This document shows, piece after piece, positions 34,664-64,000 of a DNA stretch of 64,000 bases. Location: assembly GCA_030692355.1 (NCBI GenBank), contig JAUYCF010000088.1, forward strand, positions 1 to 64,000, in the 5' to 3' direction. This DNA is from Thiobacillus sp. GTDB lineage: Bacteria > Pseudomonadota > Gammaproteobacteria > Burkholderiales > Thiobacillaceae. Below the pieces are notes generated by a model. That model was given only the letters and a program-made list of their open reading frames with translations. It was not told the origin of the DNA and did no database searches. The position numbers and the translations under genes were made by a program. Position 1 is the stretch's first letter, and each line of letters opens with the position of its first letter.

Positions 34664-35827
34664 TCAGGCCAGTTGCTGCCCCCTGCTGCAGGACGATACC
34701 GCCCGGTCTTTCCCGCTCTGTTTGGCGGTGTACATGCGCTGGTCGGCGATTTCAACCAGCGTTTTCCAGTTGCCGGCCGTGTCTTCCATCCGCTCTGCGA
34801 TACCGATGCTGGCAGTGATCGGCTTGTTGTCCGGCCTCAGGCCGAAGCCGCCTGCGCGAAGCCGTTCTATGGCGGTGATTGCATCGTTGCAGTAAGTGTT
34901 GGGCAGGATCAGGATGAATTCCTCGCCGCCCCAGCGCGCCAGCATGTCCCCGGTGCGAAGGGTGGCGCGGATTTGTTCGGCGGCGCCGATCAGCACTTGA
35001 TCGCCAGCTTCATGGCCGAAACCGTCGTTGACGCTCTTGAAATTGTCCAGGTCGATGAAGGCCAGCGACAGCGGCGTGCCACTGCGGGAGGAAAGGATGA
35101 ACTGGATTTCCAGCAGCTCCATTCCGCTCATGCGGGAGAAACATCCCGTCAGCGCATCGCGGATCGCCGTGCGCACCAGCGCGATCATGAAGCCGAGCTG
35201 GCTCATGCAGGAAAGCGCGGCCACGATTGCGATTAAAACCACTAGCCAGGAAGTGCTGATGAGCGTGGTCAGATTCAGGATGTCCGTGCCCATCAGGGCG
35301 GAAGCGACCTCGGCGATCAGCACCGGAGCTGCGTAGACCGCCACTTCCAGGGCGGTGAGGGGAAACATGCTCAGGCCCGCAACCATCACGATCGGCAGAA
35401 AAGCGTAGGTCGCGGCGATGGTTGCCGCCACTCCGTTCAGATAGATTCCGGACAGCAGCAGATAGGAAAACATGAAGAATGCAGTCGGAATGGCGAACAA
35501 GGCGCCGAGCGCCAGGTAAGCGTCGCGCATCCGGGTCGAGCCATTGAACGAAAGAGCCAGCCCGGCGAATGCGATGCCGGCCACAACGCGACCGATGGCC
35601 AGTTGCCCCCAGATCGGCCACGGCAGCACCAGCATGTCGGGAACGATGAACAGCACGGTAAGTGCGGCGAACAGGGCGGCGATCAAGCGCACGCGGGAGA
35701 TGATCATCGAAGCGCGGCGCGTGGACAGCAGCGACATGTGCTTGCCGGGGAACAGCAGCCACAGAATTTCTTCACGTGGCAATTCGTTGAGGATGCTCTT
35801 GATGGCTGGATGTTCGAGTGGCTTCAT
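34664..35827 (-). CDS. Membrane-anchored diguanylate cyclase (GGDEF)
   Basis: about 6 TM segments then DALTGCFSR ... LRTGDMLARWGGEEFILILPN (GGEEF active site with RxxD I-site). Confidence 0.93.
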   Translation of the reverse strand: MKPLEHPAIKSILNELPREEILWLLFPGKHMSLLSTRRASMIISRVRLIAALFAALTVLFIVPDMLVLPWPIWGQLAIGRVVAGIAFAGLALSFNGSTRMRDAYLALGALFAIPTAFFMFSYLLLSGIYLNGVAATIAATYAFLPIVMVAGLSMFPLTALEVAVYAAPVLIAEVASALMGTDILNLTTLISTSWLVVLIAIVAALSCMSQLGFMIALVRTAIRDALTGCFSRMSGMELLEIQFILSSRSGTPLSLAFIDLDNFKSVNDGFGHEAGDQVLIGAAEQIRATLRTGDMLARWGGEEFILILPNTYCNDAITAIERLRAGGFGLRPDNKPITASIGIAERMEDTAGNWKTLVEIADQRMYTAKQSGKDRAVSSCSRGQQLA

Positions 35828-56817: not shown

Positions 56818-58208
56818 ATGGAAAACTTTTTCACCCAGTTCGCTGATTTCGTTCTGGCATGGCGCTGGCCGTTGCTGCTGGCCGTGGCGGGGATATTTAC
56901 CGTTCAAATTTCACGGGTGCCCGTTGGGCATCGCCGCTATACGGCGGCCATGACCCTGTATTTTTTTCTGCTGATTGTTGCTTTCTGGATCATGAAACCA
57001 ATCAAGAAAGCGCTTTTTGTCGGTTATTACAAGACTCACGGTGGGTTTAATGGTTTGGAACCGGCCCAGATGGAGCTTCTGGCCAAGGAAACCAATATTT
57101 TATTGGCACTCGTAATGGCGCTGATACTGGTTTGGCTGCGCCGGCGTTTCGTAGCCCGCGGGTTTGGCCTGGCGGTCGCTCTGTTATTCGCGGCAGGTCT
57201 GGCGGCAATGATTCCACTCGTGCGCGAACCGGGCGAAGCCTCGGTCTGGGCGCTATATCTCTTTGGTGACGTGTACGTCAGCAGCATGGTCGCCTTGTTT
57301 TTTGCCACCCTGCACGATCACTCAAGCGTGGGCGATGCACGACACATCTATGGACTGATCGGCCTGGGCGGCGTCTTGGGCGGACTCGCCGGCAGCGTTG
57401 CGGGGGGGGACTGGATCGCGCCGTGGGCGTTCCGGGCGTGCTGGGCGTGAGTCTCACCCTGACGCTTTGCGTGGCGGCGATCGGGTGGCTGGTTTCCAGG
57501 AGCACTCCAATTCAGTGCGTCAACGCGGGATCCGGCAAGATAGACACGGAATCAGGCCGCGGCGGGCTGTTCAAGGGCGCACGCGCCATTCTCGATTCCC
57601 GTGCTTTGCTTTTAATCGCCGGCGTGATTCTGCTGTATGAAGTTGCGTCGGTCATCATCGATTATCAATTCACTGCCGCCGTCAGCCGGGCCGTGGACGC
57701 CGCTCAACTCAAACAATATTTCAGCGCGGTCTACACCTTCTCCAATGCCATGGCGGTGCTGGTCCAACTGCTTCTAACGACATGGATCCTGCGCCGCCAC
57801 AGCTTAAAGCTGGCTTTGCTGGTGATGCCCATGGCCATCCTGCTGGGTGAATCCGCCTACCTGATATTTCCCGCTTTGCTCACAGCAAGCCTGCTCAATA
57901 CGGCAGATGGCGCTTTTGCCTATTCCATTCAGCAAACCGCGCGCGAAGCCCTGTATGTGCCCTTGTCTCGAACCGAAAAATACGAAGCCAAAGCCTTCAT
58001 CGACATCGTCTGGCTACGATTTTCCAAGGGTCTGGCTGTGATCCTGAGCCTGGCCTTGAGCCTGTTGATCCCGGATGGAGGAGAAATGCTGCTGGCGGGC
58101 GGGGTCATCCTGCTCGCGCTGGTCTGGCTGGCATTGCTGATCCCGCCCGCCGTTCATGCCGTGCCGCCTCGCCAAAAAACCCACATCCAACCTGTTCCTG
58201 TTGATTGA
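56818..58208 (+). pseudogene. Npt1/ATP-ADP-translocase-like polytopic membrane protein, split by a frameshift at a G8 tract
   Basis: 56818-57450 and 57423-58208 look like N- and C-parts of one transporter; frames change near cGGGGGGGGa (57402-57409). Confidence 0.65.
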
Positions 58209-58213
58209 ACTCC

Positions 58214-60274
58214 ATGAAAACCAAAATGGAAACCAAAATGAAAAAGACGCAAAACAAGATCCGAAAGCTGTTTCCCGGTCTGATTCTGGCGCTCACGACC
58301 AATGCCAGTCTGGCTGTGGACAAGGAGCCGGTTGACCTGGCCCCGGAAGTCCTGACGTCGCCTTACCAGGAAAGCAATCCGGAACAATCTGTCGCATCGT
58401 CAACTTCAACGGTGCCGACGGCGCTTGCCACACCCGGCAGCTTCAATTTGACGCTGGCCGATATCGGCCATCGACAGGGACACTTTTTTGAAGGCGCCTA
58501 TGGCGTGCACAGCAAGGATTTCTTCTTTCCCTTGCCACGAGGAGCGAGCCTTCGACAGGGCTCGCTTCGGGTCCATTTCCGCGCATCGCCCCTGCTAAAC
58601 GCGGCTTCCAGCCTGCGGTTCGCAATCAATGGGAAACCATCCCGACTGCTCAGTCTGGAAAACCGCGAGCAGGCGACCTTTATCGATATTCCGCTGGATC
58701 AGGAAGCGATGCAGCGCGATGCCTTGCAGCTAACCGTCAAGGCGGTGCTGTCACATGGCGAAAACCGCTGTTTTGACGAGCGCCGGCTGGCATTGCATTT
58801 CGTACAGATTTTGCCGCAAACCGCTGTGACCATCGAACTTGATCCCGCAACCAACCTGGCAGCGGCGTGGACTTCGCTCCCCGCCCAGGTAAAAGTGGGG
58901 GTGCCGCAAACCAACAGCCCGTCGGTGACCGCTGCGCTGTTGCAGACAGCGGTTTTGCTGCATGGCATGGGGCGTCAAGTCAGTTTTACCGCCTCCACCC
59001 AAACGGCGGATGTCATGGTGGGGAGCGAAGCCGAATTATCACGCCGTTATCCAGGCGCGCTGCCGCAAGGCCTGGACAAGGACGGCGCACTGGCGCTCAC
59101 GCACGATATCACTGGCAAGCCATTGATTCTGGTCACCGATCGTCTTCTGGCAAGTCCGCTGGCATCCCAGCCGCTTCATTTGGCGGGGCTGCTGCGCGGA
59201 AATCAATACCGCCATGGGCAAGCCGTCTCGCCGGCCAAAAACCGGGAGGTAGTGGACCTGATAGCGGCCGGCCTCGGCGAAACCCAGTATGTCAGCCGCA
59301 ACATCGAATGGAGCATCGACCTGGCCGCACCTCTCACTCCGGCAGACAAGCGTTTGCAGCGTCTGGTGGTCAATATTGTGTCCGCCCCCCAGCCGAAGGA
59401 AGGCCAGCAGCTGCTGCAGGTTTTCCTGAATGGAATATTGCAGGAAGTTCGCCCGCTTGACCGGGATGGCAAACCCCACACGCTGCGTTTTGACCTGGAA
59501 ACGTCAGCACAGCGCACGGGAATCAACAATCTGCGCATCGCGGTGCAACGAACGGATGTGCAAGGCGATTGCCAGGGCGTCTTGTCTGCTTTTCCGGTTC
59601 AGCTATTGCCGGGCACACGGATTGATCTGATCGATGCGGACATCAAACCAGCCAGCTTCAATGATCTGCGTGCTCATTTTGCCAAGGGCGTGGACATTTA
59701 TCTGACGCCTGACAGCCAGGCAAATTTGCTGCGGGAACTCCAGATGGCGGCTTCTGTATTTGCCAACCTGGGGCTTGATGTTACGGAAGATCGGGTTCAT
59801 TTCCTGAAGGCGGGAGAAGCCTTCAAGCCCCAGCATCCCTTTGTTTTAATCGGACGCGGCGTGGCACTGGAGAAAGCGGGGGTCCATCTGGAGCGTGGAC
59901 GGGTCAAGGTGCTGGATGGAAACAACCAACCTTTGCTGGATCTGGACCACCTGCCTGGCGTTGGACTGGCGCAGCTGGTTTCCCAAAGCGGGAAGCTGGG
60001 ATTGTCTTTGCTGACGCCGGCCGGGGGCCCGTTGCCCGCTTCCGGGAAACTGCATCTGGATCGCGACAATGTCGCCTTTATTACGGAACAGGGCGTGGCC
60101 CTCACGCTCGATTCCCGCGAACCCGCCATATCGAAGATAGCGTATCCGGACTATAGCGACTGGCTTGACTGGTTTGCGCAACACCGTTTCTGGGTGATCG
60201 CCCTGGGCTGGATGCTGATCGGCGCCACGATGGTCGGCCTCTATCGCAAAATCCGTGCGCACGGGAAAACCTGA
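58214..60274 (+). CDS. BcsB-like periplasmic polysaccharide synthase subunit
   Basis: signal peptide; FFFPLPRGASLRQGSLRVHFRASPLLNAASSLRFAINGKPSRLLSL ... C-terminal TM WFAQHRFWVIALGWMLIGATMVGLYRK. Confidence 0.82.
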   Translation: MKTKMETKMKKTQNKIRKLFPGLILALTTNASLAVDKEPVDLAPEVLTSPYQESNPEQSVASSTSTVPTALATPGSFNLTLADIGHRQGHFFEGAYGVHSKDFFFPLPRGASLRQGSLRVHFRASPLLNAASSLRFAINGKPSRLLSLENREQATFIDIPLDQEAMQRDALQLTVKAVLSHGENRCFDERRLALHFVQILPQTAVTIELDPATNLAAAWTSLPAQVKVGVPQTNSPSVTAALLQTAVLLHGMGRQVSFTASTQTADVMVGSEAELSRRYPGALPQGLDKDGALALTHDITGKPLILVTDRLLASPLASQPLHLAGLLRGNQYRHGQAVSPAKNREVVDLIAAGLGETQYVSRNIEWSIDLAAPLTPADKRLQRLVVNIVSAPQPKEGQQLLQVFLNGILQEVRPLDRDGKPHTLRFDLETSAQRTGINNLRIAVQRTDVQGDCQGVLSAFPVQLLPGTRIDLIDADIKPASFNDLRAHFAKGVDIYLTPDSQANLLRELQMAASVFANLGLDVTEDRVHFLKAGEAFKPQHPFVLIGRGVALEKAGVHLERGRVKVLDGNNQPLLDLDHLPGVGLAQLVSQSGKLGLSLLTPAGGPLPASGKLHLDRDNVAFITEQGVALTLDSREPAISKIAYPDYSDWLDWFAQHRFWVIALGWMLIGATMVGLYRKIRAHGKT

Positions 60275-62166
60275 TGTCAGCTCAAATTCCCTTTGCAGTC
60301 CCACATGCCAATGCGCACATCGGCGACGCATTGGTTCGGGACGGCCTTTTAAGCCAGGCGCGCCTGGATGAGGCTTTGGCCCTGCAAGCACGCTGGGGAA
60401 CCCGGCTGGGGGACATTCTGCTGGCCAAGGGCTGGGTGCGCGCATACGACTTTTACCGCACGCTGTCTGTCCAGTTCGAACTCCCCTTTGTCGATTTGCT
60501 TAAATCGCCCCCGGACGAAAGCCTGTTCGTCATGGCGGAACTCGATCAGTATGCCCAGTCCCTTTACCTGCCATGGAAGCAGGAAAATGGAAAATTACTG
60601 ATCGCCGTCGCCGATCCCAGCGAGACCATGCTGGCCCAGCTTGAAGACCGATATGGCAAGTCTGTGCGATTCGTCATCACGTCCAAGTTCGACATCATCT
60701 GGAGTGTGCAGCGCGTCGCCAATGCACGCCTCACCGACAAGTCGGTCCTGGAGCTGGCTCGACTACGTCCCGACCAATCCGCCCGGCAGGTGTTTACCGG
60801 CCGACAGATTATCGTCATCGGCGTGCTGGCAACCTTGATATTGACCTGCCTGGTGCTATGGCCCGTCGTGACACTCATCGCCCTCAACGGTTTCCTGTCC
60901 GTTTTCTTCCTGCTCAGCTTCGGCTTGCGTACCGTGCTGACCTGGGTGGGCTCGCATCGCAGCATTGATCTCAAGGTCAGCGATGCCGAGGTCGCAGCAC
61001 TGGAGGACCATGATTTGCCGGTTTACACCATTCTGGTACCCATGTACAAAGAACCGGACACCTTGCCCATCCTCAGCTCGGCGTTGCGGCGTATGGATTA
61101 CCCCCTGTCCAAGCTGGATGTGAAGCTGGTACTTGAAGAGGACGACATAGAAACCATACAGGCAGCAAAAGATCTTGGCCTGGAAGGCATTTTCGAAATC
61201 ATCCGGGTGCCCCACTCACAACCCAGAACCAAACCCAAGGCCTGCAACTACGCGCTCAATTTCGCGCGCGGCGAGTTGCTGACCATCTACGATGCCGAAG
61301 ACAAACCCGAGCCGGATCAACTCAAAAAAGCCGTCATCGCGTTTCGCAAGGCGCCAGACAATGTGGCCTGTATTCAAGCTCGCCTAAATTATTTCAACTC
61401 CACTGAAAACTGGCTCACCCGCATGTTCACGCTGGAGTATTCCCTCTGGTTTGATTTTTACCTGCCTGCGCTGGAAGCCTTGAAGATTCCCATTCCGCTA
61501 GGCGGCACCTCCAACCACTTCAAGATGGACGTGCTACGGGAGGCCAATGCCTGGGATCCCTTCAACGTCACGGAAGATGCCGATCTGGGCGTGCGGCTCA
61601 CCCAGCGCGGTTATCGCGTGGGCGTGGCCAACTCGACCACCTTCGAAGAGGCCAACAGTCACGTTGGCAATTGGATCCGCCAGCGTTCGCGCTGGTTCAA
61701 GGGATACATGCAAACCTATCTGGTCCACATGCGCAAACCTGTCGAGCTTTACCGCTCACTGGGCCATACGGGCTTCTGGGGTTTCCAGTTCTTTGTCGGC
61801 GGCAACATTCTCACCGCCCTTTCCCTGCCCTTTATGCTGGTCATGTTCGCTTACTGGCTTGCGACGCGCTGGAGCGGATTTGACATTATTTTTCCACCTG
61901 TTGTGCTGTATATCAGCTTGTTCAACCTGATTATCGGAAATGGATTTTTTGTCTATCTCAACATGCTCGGGGCATTCAAGCGCCACAACTTTCACCTTAT
62001 GCCCTATGCCCTGACCGTACCCGCTTACTGGTTGCTGATGACGGTGGCCGCCTACAAAGGTCTCTGGCAGCTGATACACAACCCTTTCTTCTGGGAAAAA
62101 ACCACTCATGGCTTATCCCAATTCAAACACGATGACATCGATCTACATCGCCAGCCGCAAGCCTAG
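60274..62166 (+). CDS. Family 2 processive-type glycosyltransferase with N-terminal MshEN (c-di-GMP-binding) domain
   Basis: tandem 24-residue motifs HIGDALVRDGLLSQARLDEALALQ and RLGDILLAKGWVRAYDFYRTLSVQ; GT motifs DAED, TEDADLGVRL, QRSRWFKGYMQT. Confidence 0.88.
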   Translation: MSAQIPFAVPHANAHIGDALVRDGLLSQARLDEALALQARWGTRLGDILLAKGWVRAYDFYRTLSVQFELPFVDLLKSPPDESLFVMAELDQYAQSLYLPWKQENGKLLIAVADPSETMLAQLEDRYGKSVRFVITSKFDIIWSVQRVANARLTDKSVLELARLRPDQSARQVFTGRQIIVIGVLATLILTCLVLWPVVTLIALNGFLSVFFLLSFGLRTVLTWVGSHRSIDLKVSDAEVAALEDHDLPVYTILVPMYKEPDTLPILSSALRRMDYPLSKLDVKLVLEEDDIETIQAAKDLGLEGIFEIIRVPHSQPRTKPKACNYALNFARGELLTIYDAEDKPEPDQLKKAVIAFRKAPDNVACIQARLNYFNSTENWLTRMFTLEYSLWFDFYLPALEALKIPIPLGGTSNHFKMDVLREANAWDPFNVTEDADLGVRLTQRGYRVGVANSTTFEEANSHVGNWIRQRSRWFKGYMQTYLVHMRKPVELYRSLGHTGFWGFQFFVGGNILTALSLPFMLVMFAYWLATRWSGFDIIFPPVVLYISLFNLIIGNGFFVYLNMLGAFKRHNFHLMPYALTVPAYWLLMTVAAYKGLWQLIHNPFFWEKTTHGLSQFKHDDIDLHRQPQA

Positions 62167-63646
62167 GCTCCGGCTCCTCTCCCTGGCGGTGTTTCTCGCC
62201 CTGGGCTGCCTCTATATCGGCCTCAATATCTGGCTGGGCGGGAACGGTTTTATCAGCGATTTCGATTTGCATCGCTGGAGCAAGGCCGTTACGTCGATCG
62301 ATGCCGACGAGTTCCGAATCGAACACATCGGTTTGCTCTATCCCCACGGACCGATATACCTGCTGGCCATGGTGCGTAGCGTGCCTGGCATCGACAGCGC
62401 GCTCGCTGGCGCTGCCCTGTCGGCAATCCTCATTGCGCTCATGTTCGGGTTATGGAATCGTCATTTGTGGCACAAGGGCTACCCGTTGTGGTCCCGTCTG
62501 GCAATGGTGGCGCTGCTGGCGCTCCATCCTTACAGCCTGTGGGCGGCAAGCTCCGGCCTTCACAACGCCCTGCTCCTGCTCATGTTCTACGTGTTCTGTT
62601 ATGGCTGCTATCTCATCATCAGCATCCATGACCTGCGTGCCGTGGTGCTGGTCTCTTCGATGTTTGCGGTGCTATTTTTTGCCGACGAACGAACGATGCT
62701 GCTGTTTCTGGCACTGATGCCCCTGATCCCCATACTGGCGCCAAGCCGCATGTTGGGCAACTCGCTGGTCGGCATCTACAGCATTCTGGGTTTTCCGCTG
62801 ATGGTCGCCGCGGGCGGCTGGCTATTTCTCAACTGGGTATTTCATGGCAATGCCTGGGGCTTTTTGCAGTCACCCGAGGCCAGTTTCCGCGGTGCGCTGA
62901 GCCATCCCGAAAGCTCGCCGTGGCTATCCGCGATGGGTGGCCAATGGCTGGCGCCCCTTGGCTGGGCTCTGATGTTTTCCGCGCTGGCCTTTCCGCTCCC
63001 GCTCTGGCTTGCCTGGCGCTATCGCCGATACCCCGCCAGGATGGCTGCGGCGCTGTCCCTGTTTATACATCCCGTGCTGGCGGTTGGACTGGGCACCCTG
63101 ATTTTTTTCCTGCCGGATTTGTCCGGTTTCCTGTTCCTGCTTGTCCCGGCAACGATGACGGCAATCCTGCTGATGCCACGCTCGCGGAAAATCAATCTCA
63201 TGCTGGCGATGCTTGTAATGGGCAACCTGGGCGGCTGGCTGGCATTGAGCTGGCAGCCGTCCCATGAAACCCATGCCTGGCAAGGCGCGCTTTCAGGCAA
63301 TGTTCAACCCGCCAGGGATGACCAGATTGAAATGGGGCGGTGGCTTGGAGAAAATGCCCAACCCACCCTCATCGACGATCGCTCGCTTTATCGGGCCATT
63401 TCGGCCCGCGGCCATGCGCGCAACCTGATTCTGCCGTTTTCCCATCAGTTCAAGAATGAGATGAAACGGCCACAGCCGCTTACCCAGCAGATCGTCGTCG
63501 CCAACCCCGCCAGGCCAGCTGCGGCTCTGGATCGCGTAACCCAGCAGTTCCCGGAACTCTTCTGGAATGGCGCCCCGGGATACGACCTTGTCTATGACAC
63601 GGGCGAGTGGCGCGTCTGGCGCAAACAGCCACAAACAGAGCCTTGA
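62132..63646 (+). CDS. Polytopic membrane protein, possible GT-C-like enzyme of the EPS locus
   Basis: about 10 hydrophobic segments followed by a C-terminal soluble domain; overlaps the GT gene. Confidence 0.6.
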   Translation: MTSIYIASRKPRLRLLSLAVFLALGCLYIGLNIWLGGNGFISDFDLHRWSKAVTSIDADEFRIEHIGLLYPHGPIYLLAMVRSVPGIDSALAGAALSAILIALMFGLWNRHLWHKGYPLWSRLAMVALLALHPYSLWAASSGLHNALLLLMFYVFCYGCYLIISIHDLRAVVLVSSMFAVLFFADERTMLLFLALMPLIPILAPSRMLGNSLVGIYSILGFPLMVAAGGWLFLNWVFHGNAWGFLQSPEASFRGALSHPESSPWLSAMGGQWLAPLGWALMFSALAFPLPLWLAWRYRRYPARMAAALSLFIHPVLAVGLGTLIFFLPDLSGFLFLLVPATMTAILLMPRSRKINLMLAMLVMGNLGGWLALSWQPSHETHAWQGALSGNVQPARDDQIEMGRWLGENAQPTLIDDRSLYRAISARGHARNLILPFSHQFKNEMKRPQPLTQQIVVANPARPAAALDRVTQQFPELFWNGAPGYDLVYDTGEWRVWRKQPQTEP

Positions 63647-63662
63647 TTGACGAGCACGCCCC

Positions 63663-64000
63663 ATGAAAAGAATATTGACGCAACATCTCTTGTATATCCT
63701 GGCGATTCCGCTGGCCGCCAGCGCGGGCGGCCATATGCGAAGCGGCGGAGAAAGCTTCGCATCGCTAGGCCTGAGCATGGACCTGGGCGACCGTATTTTC
63801 GACAAGAGCGGAAATGCCCTCTCCAGCAGTTGCAGTCCAGGTCAATCTTTCAGCGCCTATGGCGAATATGGCTGGTCTTATTACACCACGCTGTTTGCGA
63901 GCGGATCCTTGCGCCACCAGAGCTGCGCCAGTGACGCAAAATGGGGGGTGGAAAGCGGCAAGATCGGGCTCGCACGCCGCCTCGATCCGTTTCGCAACAC
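63663..64000 (+). CDS. Secreted/outer-membrane protein, N-terminal part, cut by right edge
   Basis: MKRILTQHLLYILAIPLAASAGGHMRSGGESFASLGLSMDLGDRIFDKSGNALSSSCSPGQSFSAYGEYGWSYYTTLFASGSLRHQSC...; signal peptide and amphipathic beta-strand-like segments; absent from the ORF track because it is open-ended. Confidence 0.6.
   Translation, partial: MKRILTQHLLYILAIPLAASAGGHMRSGGESFASLGLSMDLGDRIFDKSGNALSSSCSPGQSFSAYGEYGWSYYTTLFASGSLRHQSCASDAKWGVESGKIGLARRLDPFRN

Follow-up and report, generated by a model that had tools for sequence, protein, structure and literature searches.

A putative Xag/Sfz-type exopolysaccharide synthase operon in Thiobacillus sp. that lacks the usual glycosidase gene

Described xag and sfz clusters and the layout of the locus

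The closest described systems are the xag genes of Xanthomonas and the sfz and sfb clusters of iron-oxidising bacteria. In X. oryzae pv. oryzicola, deletions of xagA and xagB abolish the extra biofilm of a mutant in rpfG, which encodes an HD-GYP c-di-GMP phosphodiesterase, a phenotype that links xagABCD to the c-di-GMP pathway (PMC3609779). The bcsB-xagB-xagC-xagD run of stalk-forming iron oxidisers was reported by Kato et al. 2015 (PMC4643136); the names sfz1-6 and sfb1-4 come from a 2021 pan-genome paper (PMC8250860). The sfz genes, including those of Mariprofundus ferrooxydans PV-1, have been put forward as candidates for a role in Fe(III) stalk formation (PMC8250860).

Here, we analysed a 64-kb stretch of Thiobacillus sp. 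DNA (the window), situated on contig C117 of a 3.27-Mb assembly of 117 contigs; the contig ends at 66627, beyond the window. The features of the locus are as follows.

56818..57450, + strand: NTT/TLC-type ATP-ADP transporter, N-terminal half (36-42% identity to the first ~200 aa of NTTs that are encoded by a single ORF in loci L003, L004 and L032)
57423..58208, + strand: remainder of that NTT gene (C-terminal half), read in a different frame (PF03219 TLC, 36.6 bits)
58205..60274, + strand: BcsB-like periplasmic subunit with a C-terminal anchor (= Sfz1; PF03170, 34 bits, cut-off 21)
60274..62166, + strand: MshEN-GT2 synthase (= XagB/Sfz2), 630 aa (PF05157, 52 bits; NF053729; GT2)
60316..60474, + strand: MshEN_N within the synthase (aa 15-67), two 24-residue c-di-GMP motifs with a 5-residue spacer
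61006..61716, + strand: GT2 catalytic domain of the synthase (TED at 61570-61578, QxxRW at 61681-61695)
62108..63646, + strand: XagC/Sfz3, polytopic, predicted GT-C glycosyltransferase fold (AlphaFold2 pLDDT 91.6, pTM 0.91)
63647..63662, + strand: 16-base gap at the usual place of the xagD/sfz4 GH113 gene (about 1 kb), from the sequence and its relatives
63663..64000, on the contig to 64508, + strand: outer-membrane beta-barrel (= Sfz5, XagA homologue; AlphaFold2 beta-barrel, pLDDT 79)
64486-66441, outside the window: CotH kinase gene (= Sfz6; PF08757, 175 bits)

A sequence-only reading of this DNA had proposed an undescribed operon of five same-strand, overlapping or abutting genes. The run itself is borne out from 56818 to beyond 64000, and from 58205 four genes abut or overlap: those for the BcsB-family protein, the MshEN-GT2, the polytopic membrane protein, which that reading had also recognised, and the gene starting at 63663. 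Its translocase-like first gene, a 210-aa ORF at 56818-57450, covers no more than the N-terminal part of a single NTT; its fifth, secreted or outer-membrane protein is an outer-membrane protein that is incomplete in the window. Extending the contig past 64000, as had been advised, shows that this fifth gene ends at 64508 and that the CotH kinase gene follows before the contig end at 66627. The label 'undescribed' does not hold, because the locus shares synteny and homology with the published xag, xag-like, sfz and sfb clusters (PMC4643136, PMC8250860, PMC3609779); the proposed synteny check thus arrives at a known named system, under names other than bcs or nfr. The same gene order is seen again in 20 distinct loci of Beta-, Gamma- and Zetaproteobacteria, so the arrangement is far from chance. 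A defence system was also considered and rejected, PADLOC having returned zero hits.

The MshEN-GT2 has homologues at 55-66% identity in 37 distinct loci that were gathered here; most come from Beta-, Gamma-, Alpha- and Zetaproteobacteria, with a few from other bins, and component profiles run over them separate two main layouts. The sfz type, BcsB-XagB-XagC-GH113-barrel-CotH and usually an NTT, is carried by Mariprofundus including M. ferrooxydans PV-1, an Azoarcus bin, a Nitrosomonadales bin and several Gammaproteobacteria. The xag type, [BcsB]-XagA-XagB-XagC-GH113, occurs in Pseudomonas, Acetobacteraceae and Pseudoxanthomonas, and in Xanthomonas without the upstream BcsB. The XagB of the window groups with sfz-type sequences in a supported clade (99/98), with a BcsB-like Sfz1 upstream and a CotH Sfz6 downstream; by homology and gene order, the window operon is of the sfz type.

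Compared with sfz1-6 of PV-1 (L017, where gene lengths are close to those in Table 2 of PMC8250860), the window shares the components in the order sfz1-sfz2-sfz3-sfz5-sfz6, a XagB that is 60% identical, and an ATP-ADP antiporter nearby. It differs in having no sfz4 (GH113), in an NTT that lies upstream and is frameshifted, and in shorter BcsB-like and CotH proteins with no SH3 part. With Xanthomonas xagABCD (PMC3609779) it has in common XagB, XagC and an XagA-homologous barrel, whereas there the barrel gene precedes xagB and the GH113 gene is retained; unlike the window, the Xanthomonas loci fetched have no BcsB-like gene upstream of xagA, and a BcsB profile signal is found downstream of xag. 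Ferriphaselus sfb1-4, or xag-like CDS9-12 (PMC4643136), were compared by their published description: they are reported also to hold bcsB-like, xagB and xagC genes in one run, to lack sfz5 and sfz6, and to keep xagD.

An absent glycosidase, a split transporter and probable horizontal acquisition

Between the end of XagC at 63646 and the barrel start at 63663 there is no GH113 gene, and a profile search found none in the whole genome, while the same search recovered the gene in 9/9 locus genomes used as a positive control; relocation of the gene elsewhere in this genome was rejected on that basis. The other 20 distinct sfz-type loci all possess the gene (L081 being counted as a duplicate of L006), so that the window copy alone is without it; two further loci, L025 and L043, also have no GH113 in their fetched stretches. 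The window operon is, by homology, a xag/sfz member short of one component, the XagD/Sfz4 glycosidase, and not a complete xag/sfz operon. As for the enzyme itself, the Sfz4/XagD proteins of relatives score 105-158 bits as GH113, with E151 and E241, both invariant, placed as would suit the catalytic pair in this class of enzyme. PMC8250860 had assigned Sfz4 to GH10; on these profile matches, Sfz4/XagD is GH113 instead.

The NTT gene is the second irregularity. Its C-terminal half shares 37-49% identity with the matching region of the NTTs of L003, L004 and L032, and in relatives the two halves are joined in one ORF of 470-509 aa. The switch of homology from one frame to the other at about 57.4 kb marks either a broken gene or a misassembly.

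Two observations point to acquisition of the operon by horizontal transfer, namely its lower G+C (0.55-0.59 vs 0.66 in the rest of the window) and its rarity in the genus: only one of 35 congeners (G003) has a full-length XagB homologue, which shares 47% identity and lies next to a different barrel. In that congener the XagA-like barrel and XagB genes lie at a contig end (L076, G003:C16), and because their arrangement differs, xagB was apparently gained at least twice in the genus.

In this context, the loss of the glycosidase following horizontal transfer and the split of the NTT over two frames could mean that the window holds a decaying, non-functional xag/sfz copy, all the more as no other sfz-type locus is without GH113 and the genome holds none elsewhere. 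We consider this unlikely, though not far-fetched: the BcsB, XagB, XagC, barrel and CotH genes are all open over their full length, the catalytic and c-di-GMP residues are conserved, and the one frameshift may stem from a sequencing error, the assembly being a draft.

CotH kinase and NTT genes are adjacent in other sfz-type operons (L080, L082, L083 and the Mariprofundus loci), which suggests that the kinase could be supplied with ATP outside the cytoplasm. In a survey of 274 genomes from the class, the two genes lie side by side in 4 besides the window's own, and a close XagB homologue adjoins the pair in 4/4; the pairing occurred in none of the 8 tested CotH genomes that have no close XagB homologue. 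Because it is found only beside close XagB homologues, the pairing is a trait of this operon lineage, and CotH-NTT as a general kinase-transporter pair was rejected. A literature search found no link between CotH and a nucleotide transporter. The pairing permits, and does not demonstrate, an extracytoplasmic phosphorylation step.

The synthase, its BcsB-like partner, the membrane enzyme and the barrel

Aligned over about 600 aa, the XagB of the window reaches 60-66% identity with XagB/Sfz2 proteins from Mariprofundus, Xanthomonas and Gammaproteobacteria. This near full-length identity, together with a gene order shared with the published clusters, argues against the earlier view that the locus is a distinct exopolysaccharide system making a polymer unlike the Xag/Sfz product; the missing GH113 and a XagB branch that stands apart from Mariprofundus and Xanthomonas speak for such a system, which we nevertheless regard as very improbable.

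The N-terminus of XagB has two 24-residue motifs, a 5-residue spacer and the conserved Gly and Gln residues of MshEN domains, as defined by the MshE consensus (PMC5013675). G17, G24, L31, L35, Q38, R44, L45, G46, G53, L64 and Q67 match that consensus, and three positions depart from it: H15 (Arg9), I16 (Leu10) and F60 (Leu54). With most contacts kept, the domain is probably a c-di-GMP receptor. PMC8250860 termed the Sfz2 N-terminus EpsE-like and sought c-di-GMP motifs in the BcsB-like subunit, a protein that is non-cytoplasmic by that paper's own prediction; the 24+5+24 layout identifies this N-terminal region of Sfz2 as an MshEN domain. The Mariprofundus XagB proteins (L008, L015, L017, L024) carry an extra N-terminal ~60 aa that resemble a second copy of the MshEN motif, which the window protein does not have.

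The catalytic domain agrees with the sequence-only reading of a GT2 with TED and QxxRW motifs: in a family alignment of 31 rows, the Asp, TED and QxxRW positions are invariant or nearly so, and the GT profile matches the BcsA structures 9fmv/4hg6 with E about 1e-14. The MshEN domain is fused to a processive-type GT2, and the BcsB-like gene lies directly upstream, as that reading had also proposed. This gene starts at TTG 58205 or ATG 58214, is syntenic with Sfz1 of PV-1, and belongs to the PF03170 family; its family profile matches the solved BcsB chains 6yg8/7lby/9fmt weakly (E about 0.003-0.008), and the BcsB similarity of the Sfz1-like protein is, at the profile level, weak and mostly N-terminal. 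The operon holds no PilZ, BcsA or BcsZ, again in agreement with the initial reading, and Pfam gives no PilZ hit on the GT.

In PV-1, upstream of sfz1, one frame (L017:5527-7338) combines a transposase match with a strong BcsB-profile match and looks like a second BcsB-like gene interrupted by a transposon.

The mixture of bcs and nfr logic that had been suggested is present, in a locus that is neither a canonical bcs nor a canonical nfr operon. Like the BcsA-BcsB cellulose synthase, the window pairs a processive-type GT2 with an anchored periplasmic BcsB, and activation by c-di-GMP would, by analogy, be common to both; it differs in that MshEN replaces the C-terminal PilZ of BcsA, an extra GT-C protein is present, its own barrel replaces BcsC, and there is no BcsZ. 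NfrB of the E. coli NGR glycan system (PMC8669469) is likewise an MshEN-controlled glycosyltransferase, but has other partners and carries MshEN C-terminal to the GT, whereas MshEN is N-terminal in the window protein, which matches only NfrB positions 482-622 (the MshEN segment). Despite the similarity to BcsB and BcsA-like GTs and the MshEN shared with NfrB, a disguised cellulose or NGR operon is vanishingly unlikely and was rejected, given a GT without PilZ, no second BcsB in the genome (PF03170 search), an inverted domain order relative to NfrB, and scores far below curated cut-offs (CelA, 46 bits vs 699; NfrB equivalog, 38 bits vs 1170).

Directly downstream of xagB, the window XagC is 29-39% identical to its sfz- and Xanthomonas-type homologues. 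The top PDB hits of its model in Foldseek are all GT-C enzymes (AftA, DPY19, STT3, ArnT, PglB, PMT), at moderate TM-scores of 0.43-0.56 over the query, for which reason the call stays at the level of the fold; an acidic residue in the first loop, Glu72, is conserved in 27/34 sequences. Sfz3, listed as 'unknown' in PMC8250860, is here predicted to be a GT-C-fold enzyme.

Sfz5 is also 'unknown' in PMC8250860, and xagA was reported absent from both Ferriphaselus genomes (PMC4643136). The barrel model finds the COG4313 channel 4rl8 and FapF (5o68) in Foldseek, and HHalign of Sfz5 vs XagA gives 99.4% (E 5e-21), compared with 0.2% for an unrelated-profile control. The window thus has the outer-membrane barrel of these clusters, and by remote homology Sfz5 is the XagA counterpart in sfz-type loci.

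Proposed mechanism and significance

We favour, with a probability of about 0.8, a horizontally acquired, c-di-GMP-switched Xag/Sfz exopolysaccharide synthase operon with GT-C decoration and barrel export. Binding of c-di-GMP to the N-terminal MshEN of XagB/Sfz2 would switch on the GT2 domain, which, with its BcsB-like partner and in the manner of BcsA-BcsB, would polymerise a sugar chain and extrude it across the inner membrane. XagC/Sfz3 may then add sugars on the periplasmic side from polyprenyl-phosphate donors, and the Sfz5/XagA barrel may export the chain through the outer membrane. Trimming or release of chains, which would fall to the usual GH113 glycosidase, is the step missing from the window copy; the secreted CotH-family kinase and, originally, the NTT transporter would be accessory parts. 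The product is a putative polysaccharide by homology. Several points count against this reading: the rpfG effects are partly transcriptional, Arg9, Leu10 and Leu54 of the MshEN consensus are replaced, the likeness to BcsB is weak, and the lost GH113 and frameshifted NTT could be signs of decay.

A more elaborate, and distinctly doubtful, version is a two-synthase extracytoplasmic glycan line, in which the c-di-GMP-gated GT2 would make and extrude the backbone, the GT-C enzyme would decorate it in the periplasm with sugars taken from lipid carriers, and the secreted CotH/Fam20-like kinase would phosphorylate the glycan or a matrix protein with NTT-supplied ATP. If true, it would yield a phosphate-rich, metal-binding matrix.

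The gene set itself was already known, as xag in Xanthomonas and as sfz/sfb in iron-oxidising bacteria; what is new here is the GT-C fold of XagC, the Sfz5-XagA homology, the GH113 and MshEN assignments, the xag-sfz link and the glycosidase loss. The window operon belongs to a poorly understood but known exopolysaccharide family and is one gene short, ordinary in kind and useful in detail. The set is widespread in Beta-, Gamma-, Alpha- and Zetaproteobacteria and is a candidate for iron stalks, which serve as microbial biosignatures. Two of its parts that had no assigned function in the reports consulted now carry predicted folds (GT-C and barrel), and these, the identity of the Sfz5-XagA barrel and the MshEN reading of Sfz2 are concretely testable. 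The window copy, naturally without the glycosidase, offers a test of whether GH113 is dispensable.

Elsewhere in the window, on the minus strand at 34664-35827, an ORF resembles a membrane-anchored GGDEF diguanylate cyclase with a GGEEF motif, a possible source of c-di-GMP nearby.
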